A stretch of 42,812 nucleotides of DNA from Candidatus Woesearchaeota archaeon (GTDB lineage Archaea; Nanobdellota; Nanobdellia; Woesearchaeales; UBA10216), in the NCBI GenBank assembly GCA_018303115.1, contig JAGVYT010000013.1:1-42812 (forward strand), read 5' to 3'. The position numbers and the translations under genes were made by a program. Below the pieces are notes generated by a model that made no database searches, had not been told where the DNA came from, and was given only the letters and a program-made list of their open reading frames with translations. Below, in pieces: positions 6,365-42,748 of this stretch (the first letter of the stretch is position 1; each line of letters opens with the position of its first letter).

Positions 6365-6393
6365 AGAGCTGCTGCAGGGAAAGTCTGTCATTA

Positions 6394-6513
6394 GGCATTG
6401 TTGAAAGTCTTGCCCGCTCTCTTATTCGCCCTTTCCTTTTTTCCTTCTCCCCTTAACTTGTTAGAGGGGGGAAGGAAAATTGGAGGAAGAAGCGACAGCA
6501 GCAAAACAGGCAA
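6394..6513 (+). repeat. 120-base hairpin element, copy 1
   Basis: This copy is exactly as long as 24791-24910. Both begin with the same 21 bases (GGCATTGTTGAAAGTC...), both end in CAAAACAGGCAA, and in both the central hairpin starts at offset 45. Here the hairpin is 6439-6479, TTTTCCTTCTCCCCT against AGGGGGGAAGGAAAA. The inner stem and loop (CTCCCCTTAAC) are conserved between copies. The outer stem differs in both arms together, so pairing is kept. The next ORF's first possible start codon (TTG 6480) lies inside the element. Confidence 0.75.
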
Positions 6514-7064
6514 ATAACGACTTTTTCAACAGAGCCCGGTCATTAAAAAAATACTTAAACTCTGATAAACTCCCGGCAGGAATGACTGGCATAGCCCAAA
6601 TAATCAGTGAACTTGACAGCTTGCCATTAAAATCAGCCGATGAAAGACATGAGGAATACATGCTTACAGGAGATCTCACAAAGCTAAACAATCATAGACT
6701 GACAGCCACCCCAAAAAGGATTATTGAATCTTCTGGAAGTCTCTCTGGTGAGCAATTCTCGGCTTTTTTGCAGCACGCTATTTCGATGTTTCCAAATCCG
6801 CAATTACCGAGTGGAATAACCGGATACGCATTCGATACTTTCTATGGCCGGAGTGTTTTATGCACAGTTGCCGTAGAGGCCTTTTTAAGCCGGGATAACC
6901 GCTCAGAAGCTGACAGGCTGACTCTAAGAAACGCATTGGCCCAGGTTAAGGGATATGAGATGGAAATACTTGTATTCGATAAGTTTGATGAATCCGGGGT
7001 AGCTGATGCAGAAATAACCATTGACAAGTTACTTATGCGTTTGTCAGAATTGCCTGTCCCTTAA
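6480..7064 (+). CDS. Hypothetical protein, up to 194 aa
   Basis: I do not recognise this protein. It looks soluble and helical, with no signal peptide, no cysteine cluster and only two cysteine or histidine-poor regions. The start is uncertain. The longest reading begins with TTG at 6480, inside the 120-base repeat element, so the first eleven residues would be supplied by that element. The next in-frame ATG, at about residue 35 (MTGIAQIISELD), gives about 160 aa. No clear TATA box or ribosome site was found for either start. Insertion of the element in or near the 5' end may have altered the original gene start. Confidence 0.5.
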   Translation: MEEEATAAKQANNDFFNRARSLKKYLNSDKLPAGMTGIAQIISELDSLPLKSADERHEEYMLTGDLTKLNNHRLTATPKRIIESSGSLSGEQFSAFLQHAISMFPNPQLPSGITGYAFDTFYGRSVLCTVAVEAFLSRDNRSEADRLTLRNALAQVKGYEMEILVFDKFDESGVADAEITIDKLLMRLSELPVP

Positions 7065-7966: not shown

Positions 7967-10645
7967 TTATAGCTCATTTAATTCCGCCCTGTCCTTCTTT
8001 TTCTTTTTCCATTTGAAGCCTTTTACAGCCCCTAACAGGGAAACATGTGGTGAAGTTTTGCTCGCCTTGAACCTTTTCATCAGCAGCGAGTTTGTAAGCA
8101 CGCTCACAGAGCTGAAAGCCATTGCTATCCCCGCTATTATCGGGTTAAGGAGAAAGCCGGTGAATGGGAACAGTATGCCTGCTGCTATGGGAATCCCGGC
8201 AGAATTGTAGAAGAAAGCCCAGAAGAGGTTTTGCTTTACCTTCCTTAAGGTGTAGCGGCTTAGCTCTATTGCGGTTATGACGTCCCGCAGGTCATTCTTT
8301 ACCAAAACAATATCGCCAGTTTCTATCGCAACGTCAGTTCCTGAGCCGATGGCTATTCCGATGTCTGCCTGCGCAAGGGCAGGGGCATCGTTTATTCCGT
8401 CTCCGACCATTGCCACTTTCAGCCCTTTCTGCTGCAGCTTCTTTATCTCATTTTCCTTCTCCTCTGGAAGCACTTCTGCAAGCGCCTCGTCTATTCCGAG
8501 CTGCTTTGCAATGGCAGCTGCTGTTTTCCTGTTATCGCCTGTCATCATCATTACCTTTTTTCCCATTCTGTGCAGCTGCTCAACAGCTTCTTTGGAATAG
8601 TCGCTAACAGTGTCGGCTACAGCTATGATTCCGGAAGTCTTTTTCCCGGCTGCAACCAGCATTACGGTTTTTCCTTCGCTTTCAAGCTTTTGCAGAGAGC
8701 CCTCAACGTTCTTGGTTTCCACTCCGAACTGCTCCATAAGCTTCCTGTTCCCCACAAGCACCTTTTTACCATTTATGACTGCGCTAACGCCTTTTCCTGT
8801 AATGGAGTTAAAATTTGTAATGCGGGGCAGCTTTAGCTTTTCCTTTTCAGCCGCCTTTACAATAGCGGCGCTTAATGGGTGCTCTGACTTTTTCTCGACA
8901 GCCGCTGCCAGCTTTAGTATTTCATTCCTGCTGCCATTGAATGCTGCCACGTCAGTGACTTCGGGCATTCCCCTTGTAAGTGTCCCTGTCTTGTCGAATA
9001 CTACCGCATCTACTTTTCCTGTTTTTTGCAGCGCCTCTGCGGTCTTGAAAAGTATCCCGTTTTGCGCTCCAAGCCCTGAACCAACCATTATCGCGGTTGG
9101 GGTTGCCAGACCGAGGGCGCATGGACAGGCAATGATTAAAACTGCAATGAATATTGTTAAGGCAAAGACAAATCCGAATCCCATGAAGTACCACACTAAG
9201 AAAGAAACTATTGCGATGACAACCACTGCCGGAACAAAGTAGGAAGAGATTGCATCTGCAAGTTTCTGGATAGGGGCTTTGCTTCCCTGCGCCTCCTCAA
9301 CGAGTTTTATTATCTGGGCAAGAACAGTGTCTTTCCCTACTTTCGTTGCCTTGAACATGAAGCTTCCTGTCTTGTTTATTGTAGCGCCGATTACAGCGCT
9401 GCCTTTTGCTTTCTCTACAGGGATGCTCTCCCCGGTAACCATTGACTCGTCAACAGATGAGTGGCCTTCCGTTACAGTGCCGTCAACAGGTATTTTCTGG
9501 CCAGGCTTGGCTATGACAATGTCTCCAACAATGACTTCGTCAATACCCACTTCAACCTCCTTTCCTTTCCTTAAAACAACTGCCTTTTTTGCCTGCAATC
9601 CGAGAAGCTTCTTTATCGCTTCTGAAGTTCTGCCTTTTGCTATGGCTTCTAAATATCTGCCGAGCAGGATGAACGCTATGAGAAGTCCTGCAATTTCGTA
9701 ATAGAGGTTGCTGTGGCCGTAGCCTGTGCTGCCGCTCCACATAATGATTGAGAGAACGAGGCTGTAAAGGTATGCTGCTCCTGTTCCAACTGCTATGAGC
9801 GTGTCCATGTTTGCAGTTCTGGTGCGGATAACTGAGGAAATTCCTTTGGTGAAGAATTCGTAACCTGCAAGCATTATCGGGGTTGTGAGGAGGAACTGGA
9901 TTAAGGCGATGTTTTCCTCAACAAATACGGGTATTGGCATGCCGAATACTGAACCCATGGCAAAGTAGAGCAGCGGCAGGCCGAAAACTATTGCCGCAGT
10001 CAAACGGAGGCGGAGCGAGCGCAGCTCTTTTTCCCGTGCTTTTTTTTCAACATCAGCGTCCTCGGAATATTCCTCCGGCTCATAACCGGCATTCCTTATT
10101 GCTTGCATTATTTTTTCAATTGTTGTCTGTTTCGGGTCATAAATTACAATGGCTCTTTCGATGGCAAAGCTTGCCTCAACGTTCAGAACTCCAGCTTGCT
10201 TTTTCAGGCTTGACTCAATGATTCCTGCGCAGTGCTGCGAATTCATCCCCCTTACTTTGAGGGTTATTTCAGAACCTTTCCCGCTGCTCTTGATTATGTC
10301 ATAGCCTGCTTTCTTAACAGCCGCCTCAATTGCCTGCTCGCCGGTTTTTGCAGCATCGTATTCAACGGATGCCTTTTCAGAAGCGTAGTTGACATTGGCA
10401 TTCACTACTCCGGGAACTTTTTTCAGTTCCTTCTCTATTCTTACGGCGCATGAAGCGCAGTGCATCCCTTCTATGGGCAGTATTTTTTTGGTCGCGGTTT
10501 TAGTTTCCTTACCGAGAAATTTATCGTGGCAGCTTTTGCTGCAGAAATAATGCTTCTTTCCATTCTTTACAGCAGAAAACTTGGCTGTCTTATCATCAAC
10601 CTCCATTCCGCAGCTCGGGTCTTTTGATTTCATTTTCACTTTCAT
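7967..10645 (-). CDS. copA: Copper-exporting P1B-type ATPase with YHS/TRASH and two HMA domains
   Basis: Cu+-exporting ATPase of the cytoplasmic membrane. Domains in order: a YHS/TRASH-like segment (residues 8-45, DPSCGMEV and [11 protein letters not shown]), one HMA domain with GMHCASC near residue 60, a second HMA whose motif has decayed to GMNSQHC, then eight membrane segments. The intramembrane CPC motif (CPCALG, about residue 507), the FFYN and MAFSS motifs of the last helices, the phosphorylation site DKTGTLT (about 550), SEHPLS and [10 protein letters not shown] are all present, giving the P1B-1 (Cu+) pattern. At 892 aa it is long because of the extra N-terminal domain. The gene follows the Cys-rich protein gene directly (stop TAA, then ATG) with a GGAG site. 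Confidence 0.96.
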
Positions 10646-24759: not shown

Positions 24760-24790
24760 AACTGATTCTTTAATAGGCTAAAGTTTAGAT

Positions 24791-24910
24791 GGCATTGTTG
24801 AAAGTCTTGCCTGTTTGCTTCTTTGGCTTGCCCTGTTTTATCTCTCCCCTTAACATTTTAGAGGGGGGAGATAAAATTAAAGGCGGCAGGAACAGAATCA
24901 AAACAGGCAA
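24791..24910 (+). repeat. 120-base hairpin element, copy 2
   Basis: Same length and layout as 6394-6513. It starts with the same 21 bases, and its hairpin at 24836-24876 (TTTTATCTCTCCCCT against AGGGGGGAGATAAAA) begins at the same offset of 45. It ends in CAAAACAGGCAA. Here TTGCCTGTTT (24808-24817) and AAACAGGCAA (24901-24910) form a 10-bp terminal inverted repeat. The outer stem differs from copy 1 on both arms, preserving pairing. Confidence 0.75.
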
Positions 24911-24929
24911 AAAAGTTTAGCGACACTGA

Positions 24930-24977
24930 GCTTATTTTCTCTCCTCCTTGCATAGTTATGGAGGAGAGAAAATAAGC
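24930..24977. repeat. Long hairpin, TTGCA-loop type, copy 2
   Basis: A perfect 18-bp stem, GCTTATTTTCTCTCCTCC against its complement, closes a 12-base loop TTGCATAGTTAT. It is related to 1517-1563 by loop and inner stem and by the following GCGGC. It lies directly after copy 2 of the 120-base element and is followed by another ACAGGCAAAAC, like the end of that element, before the 3' end of the minus-strand lipoprotein gene. Confidence 0.75.
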
Positions 24978-42538: not shown

Positions 42539-42574
42539 TTTTTGCAACTGCTGGGCGTTGCCCCGAATCCTGTT
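42539..42574 (-). promoter_or_regulatory. Shared upstream element of herA
   Basis: The minus strand begins AACAGGATTCGGG and ends at the TATA region, as does the element at 32691-32726 before rnp3. 28 of 36 positions match without gaps. Confidence 0.5.
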
Positions 42575-42748
42575 CGTGTAGCTATTGCATGCCCTCAAAC
42601 CTGTTCTCCAAAACTTCTATGACCACTCTATGGCTCACATACGGCAGAGCAGGAGGGAGGAAGTAAAGAGGAAGCGATAAACATTCGAGAAAGCTCTTTT
42701 AGGACAACGCCGAACTGCTGCTAAAATTTATAAACTCGCCGTAACAGC

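Follow-up and report, generated by a model that had tools for sequence, protein, structure and literature searches.

The stretch of DNA analysed here (the window, 42,812 nucleotides) is contig C25 of a Woesearchaeota genome, a draft metagenome assembly that is broken at the repeats described below. It carries two copies of a short dispersed sequence, 18 kb apart, which the earlier note described as exactly 120 bases long and read as either a miniature mobile element or a structured RNA; the first copy, in that reading, may also supply a start codon to the gene following it. The questions addressed were what this sequence is, how far it extends, and how its place in the genome is chosen.

Boundaries, copies and related insertion sequence

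The first 21 bases are identical at 6394 and 24791, as had been noticed, and no other match to them was found in the window at up to 3 mismatches (none being expected by chance). A search of the organism's own 0.99-Mb, 45-contig genome yielded about 17 copies, several at contig ends, which excludes that the repeat is limited to these two. When the flanks of the copies were compared, complete copies measured 142-143 bp, not 120, and had terminal inverted repeats of 16-18 bp, GGCATTGTTGAAAGTC at the left and GGCTCTGTTGAAAAAGTC, in reverse complement, at the right. The second terminal repeat of copy 1 had been missed (Table 1), and the pair TTGCCTGTTT/AAACAGGCAA taken for terminal repeats is actually an internal inverted repeat, whose 5' arm is altered to TTGCCCGCTC in copy 1 and several others.

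Perfect or near-perfect duplications of 9-11 bp were found at L003, L010, L011, L014, L012, C23/C38 and L008. The direct repeats flanking the copies read ccacacaatta, ccgggtcttca, tatacggcgac, ccgctttcg and catgtaagt, and that of copy 1 reads c[tg]gtcatta with one mismatch between the two sides. Since direct repeats at many copies represent target duplications, the element is a MITE (hereafter MITE1). Two main subfamilies were distinguished, A (including copy 2) and B (including copy 1), and both orientations relative to genes were found.

Table 1. Coordinates of features in the window
Feature	Position	Strand	Details
MITE1 copy 1	6394..6536	+	143 bp, complete with both terminal repeats
Left terminal inverted repeat, copy 1	6394..6409	+	GGCATTGTTGAAAGTC
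Right terminal inverted repeat, copy 1	6519..6536	-	GGCTCTGTTGAAAAAGTC on minus strand
Left target-site duplication, copy 1	6385..6393		ctgtcatta, one mismatch to the right one
Right target-site duplication, copy 1	6537..6545		cggtcatta
Central hairpin, copy 1	6439..6479	+	arms 6439-6452 and 6466-6479
BRE-like spacer and TATA-like box, copy 1	6546..6559	+	6-bp spacer AAAAAA 6546-6551; box TACTTAAA 6552-6559
Gene downstream of copy 1	6582..7064	+	probable ATG 6582, 30 nt past the TATA-like box
MITE1 copy 2	24791..24912	+	right terminal repeat lost; AAAGTTTAG direct repeats 24780-24788 and 24912-24920
Central hairpin, copy 2	24836..24876	+	arms 24836-24849 and 24863-24876
E2 copy	42557..42711	+	central hairpin missing
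E2 landing site	42712..42734	+	duplication 42712-42720; 6 bp 42721-42726; TATA box TTTATAAA 42727-42734

Part of the element only is retained at L008, L009 and L017. The half-elements L008 (C15) and L009 (C4) start from the same internal first base, adjoining the hairpin; L008 has a perfect 9-bp duplication despite being half an element, as if a cryptic end had been used, and L009 adjoins BRE-like bases without a duplication. At L005/L006 (start of C38, end of C23), two left ends lie inverted with a common 11-bp duplication (tatacggcgac) across the contig break, which suggests a palindromic or composite element. A third dispersed family, with long pyrimidine/purine hairpins, was observed immediately after copy 2 at 24930-24977 (loci L095-L102); it has weak relatives on C3, C4, C15, C24 and C27.

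The exact 21-base start was absent from the contigs of other species' genomes that were searched, and one decayed relic was found in the sister genome G017, the nearest relative; as far as searched, the MITE1 sequence is confined to this species apart from that relic. In the same sister genome, the ortholog of the gene beside copy 2 has no MITE after it, but the downstream synteny differs, so that the site is not a clean empty one.

A search with the end sequences led to an intact element, roughly 893 bp long and divided between contigs C2 and C1 (G000:C1:1-893), with ends GGCATAGTTGAAAATC / GGCTCTGTTGAAAATC, a 9-bp duplication (ccccctttc) and one open frame for a 270-aa transposase. The transposase belongs to the IS5 family (NCBIfam NF033579, 150.4 bits; cut-off 140), matches DDE_Tnp_1 (Pfam PF01609), carries the conserved motifs DGT, DK..DAE and VES, and has its closest relatives in Candidatus Woesearchaeota genomes. 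No solved relative was found in the PDB by sequence, and an AlphaFold model built from four sequences (mean pLDDT 49) was set aside. A 94% identical element with the duplication gttttgggc is present in G012. MITE1 and the C1 insertion sequence resemble each other in their ends alone, which have the same left/right asymmetry (one GGCAT, the other GGCTC); the interiors differ. Judged from these sequences, a transposase of the C1:1-893 type would move MITE1 in trans.

A second MITE family, E2, comprises about 25 copies (loci L078-L092 and L147-L168) with 9-bp duplications and ends resembling GGCGTTGTCC.. / ..GGACAACGCC; one copy lies in the window, and an ATG follows shortly downstream of its TATA box. 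E2 copies in tandem with MITE1 or an IS5 element were observed on C22 (L003), C24 (L011) and C27/C37 (L124, L085), the members being separated by the same 9-bp target duplication, of which three copies stand in a row on C24. Repeated use of one site would be explicable by promoter-anchored targeting. Two oppositely oriented E2 copies at C22:5041-5195 and C22:~10480-10637 have the duplication acacaatta in common across their flanks, which suggests a 5-kb inversion by recombination between them.

Position of insertions relative to BRE and TATA box

The usual order at the insertion sites was element, target duplication, 6 bp of BRE-like sequence, TATA box and gene. The sites examined were those of MITE1, E2 and 37 IS5-type elements of the same archaeal order, the last gathered across the order by a transposase profile search. 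Each insertion site was counted as an independent event (copies of one MITE share descent); the TATA score was hand-set after the general archaeal consensus, and the intergenic null was taken from this single window. On this basis 38 of 61 sites had a TATA-like box at a distance of 14-19 bp from the element, as against 6.4% of intergenic window positions (p ~4e-30). When TATA-like 8-mers were scored freely along the element ends, 57 hits were obtained, of which 23 fell at offset 15 and 39 within offsets 14-19 (p 4e-23 relative to a uniform distribution). For the IS5-type elements, whose ends were defined without reference to TATA, the site was present at 19/19 where ends came mostly from duplication plus terminal repeat and at 13/18 where they came from the terminal repeat alone (null, 8.5%). 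For MITE1 by itself the signal was found at 7 of 16 sites with the strict cut-off and at 8 of 16 with a looser one, because several copies are truncated or rearranged. In E2 the end next to the TATA box is the right one in 13 cases and the left one in 4, a roughly threefold difference.

The distance that stays constant is the one between duplication and box, at 6: with a duplication of 11 bp the box is at 17, and with one of 8 bp it is at 14. In the six-base spacer the sequence is RAAA[CA]N, which is BRE-like. A start codon with an open frame followed the box in 40 of 47 cases, at a median distance of 31 nt and a mode of 30 nt; a spacing of about 30 nt from box to start is that of leaderless archaeal transcripts. 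Judged by sequence, these boxes resemble genuine promoters.

Copy 1 fits this pattern, its box TACTTAAA being weak by score and assigned from position. Homology of the downstream gene to a paralogue on C5 begins around ATG 6582, and hence the element does not furnish the start codon, contrary to what had been supposed; the TTG at 6480 is an accidental extension of the frame into the element. Copy 2 is a poorer case that fits only weakly, with a weak TATA-like site on its left that points into the final part of the upstream gene and has no obvious gene ahead of it.

Among rve-type insertion sequences, taken as a control, no peak was found (a weak control, boundaries being reliable for few of them), and a second control, PF00872 (IS256), gave no match among the 353 genomes of the order searched. 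A further comparison set consisted of 12 IS5 relatives from plasmids (ten haloarchaeal, one methanogen, one planctomycete); the landing signal was absent in the ten haloarchaeal ones, of which about five have clear ends. The methanogen case, L248 on a plasmid of Methanomethylovorans hollandica, is flanked on each side by TATA-like boxes 12-14 bp away and is possibly a lead to the same behaviour outside DPANN, and a lead only. In other Woesearchaeales, three IS5 elements (L174, L176, L193) lack duplications and have a TATA box 15 bp from either end, an arrangement that recombination between two promoter-anchored copies would be expected to leave.

The dispersed copies, terminal repeats, target duplications and matching intact insertion sequence in the genome, which bear out the miniature mobile element among the earlier proposals, and the fixed TATA spacing seen in several families and many genomes, make it highly probable that MITE1 is a non-autonomous IS5-family MITE similar to the IS903 type, moved by an IS5-type transposase and landing at a fixed place beside BRE and TATA box. 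An IS5-type transposase acting in trans, for example that of G000:C1:1-893, would cut at the 16-18-bp terminal repeats, and insertion would proceed by a staggered cut of 9 bp (8-11) at a preferred fixed place, such that only the six BRE-like bases separate the duplication from the TATA box and the core promoter remains intact. No sign of a recent excision or transposition event was seen.

We infer that the target is chosen via the promoter, the transposase either reading the BRE/TATA DNA or docking on TFB-TBP. Either end of the MITE can face the promoter, and the signal is confined to one side of the cut. This combination makes docking on a bound promoter complex attractive, since a symmetric transposase dimer reading DNA would be expected to give a two-sided signal; the duplication also abuts exactly where TFB would sit on the BRE. 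Judged from the sequences, it is close to an even matter, and thus tentative, that a clade of Woesearchaeota IS5-type transposases docks on the pre-initiation complex (TFB on BRE, TBP on TATA). A real possibility, though less favoured, is a variant of the recognition step only, in which the transposase itself reads a BRE/TATA-like motif 6 bp outside the cut and no host factor takes part. The strength and one-sidedness of the motif agree with such reading, as do copy 2, L002 and L004, where a TATA-like box occurs without an obvious gene start; for a symmetric dimer, however, a one-sided motif with either end facing it would be unusual, and start codons lie about 30 nt away as in true promoters, which selection could also produce.

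That the same MITE inserts at random and only harmless intergenic insertions survive would suit a small, gene-dense genome in which core promoters are left intact. Survival of this kind would, however, spread the distances, where a sharp peak at duplication plus 6 bp was observed over an intergenic null of 6-8%, and the signal is missing in the haloarchaeal IS5 relatives; we regard it as very unlikely.

The central hairpin

The centre of MITE1 is a long pyrimidine/purine hairpin, at the same offset in both copies as previously described, and both copies fold better than shuffled sequences (z -2.7 and -5.9). Over 15 copies, 97% of the cells in the stem were paired. Three neighbouring stem pairs are changed on both arms (A-U/U-A/C-G versus C-G/C-G/U-A), so that the outer-stem differences reported for the two copies are indeed present on both arms together. 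All of these double changes follow one and the same split of the sequences, 8 versus 7, corresponding to two subfamilies; with a single split for all three adjacent pairs they count as one event at most, and a block change in a DNA palindrome could equally well explain them. The three-pair covariation was therefore rejected as proof of selection on RNA. Pairing holds in nearly all hairpin-bearing copies, and L016 lacks the hairpin altogether.

In E2 the hairpin is present in few copies and missing from most, apparently lost through deletions between short repeats of CAC. Copies without a hairpin being the more common, the hairpin is not needed for spreading and looks dispensable. In the mechanism proposed above it would represent an ancestral palindromic core, lost repeatedly and probably unneeded for movement.

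The reading as a structured regulatory RNA or riboswitch-like leader, in which selection on RNA keeps the hairpin, draws on the paired stem, on the three pairs changed on both sides and on one-sided stem changes that mostly retain G-U pairs on the plus strand. Against it, no Rfam covariance model matched in the window at the gathering score, copies occur in both orientations relative to genes, one copy and most of E2 have no hairpin, several copies are halves, and the double changes amount to one block of adjacent pairs on a single split. We accordingly give the structured-RNA proposal of the earlier note little credence. An unrelated palindromic repeat class (REP/ERIC/Correia-like, IS200/IS605-derived or an integron attC) would share the short size, central hairpin and intergenic position, but can practically be dismissed, since terminal repeats with 9-11-bp duplications are of the DDE transposon type and an IS5-family element with matching ends is present in the genome.

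Relation to known systems and significance

The IS903-like type of the IS5 family (NF033579, transpos_IS5_2) resembles the elements described here in its DDE transposase (here above the curated cut-off), its size of about 0.9 kb, its GGC-type terminal repeats and the 9-bp duplications; the likeness to IS903 in particular is one of terminal repeat and duplication. IS903 itself has ends of the GGCTTTGTTGAA type, duplicates 9 bp on insertion and prefers a symmetric palindromic target, whereas the present elements use a fixed one-sided position next to BRE and TATA box. With bacterial and archaeal MITEs in general, MITE1 shares its short, non-coding nature, terminal repeats, target duplications and inferred mobilisation in trans; it differs in its species-restricted sequence, long pyrimidine/purine central hairpin and promoter-anchored landing site.

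The yeast retrotransposon Ty3 is integrated under the direction of TFIIIB at a fixed place relative to a promoter complex containing TBP. It differs in its retroviral-type integrase and in its targets, RNA polymerase III genes, and contact with a factor is only proposed for the present elements. The nearest analogue is TnGBS (p-MULT 3, and likewise the ISKra4-group p-MULT 4) of bacteria, DDE transposons whose insertion sites lie about 16 bp ahead of the -35 box in sigma-A promoters, the promoter itself remaining intact (Guerillot et al. 2014, PMC3942029). The insertion at a fixed distance upstream of an intact promoter is common to both systems; those elements employ Mutator/IS256-superfamily transposases and sigma-A promoters, and those described here an IS5-type transposase and the archaeal BRE/TATA. 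On archaea the same authors only speculate, from the AT-rich duplication of ISH6 (PMC3942029). In a literature search that covered mainly open-access papers, no report of archaeal insertion sequences targeting TATA boxes was found.

Transposons that read promoters are known for bacterial sigma-A promoters and for yeast, and the present case is an archaeal one with eukaryote-like promoter factors, in which landing beside promoters is seen in many genomes with near base-pair precision. If docking on the pre-initiation complex is true, the insertion sequence or MITE would be placed one duplication upstream of the BRE with the gene unharmed, an archaeal counterpart of Ty3/TFIIIB targeting. Landing of this kind offers an explanation for how gene-packed DPANN genomes tolerate many mobile elements and a simple system in which tethered transposition may be studied, and the element ends could serve as a practical tool for marking functional promoters in uncultured archaea.
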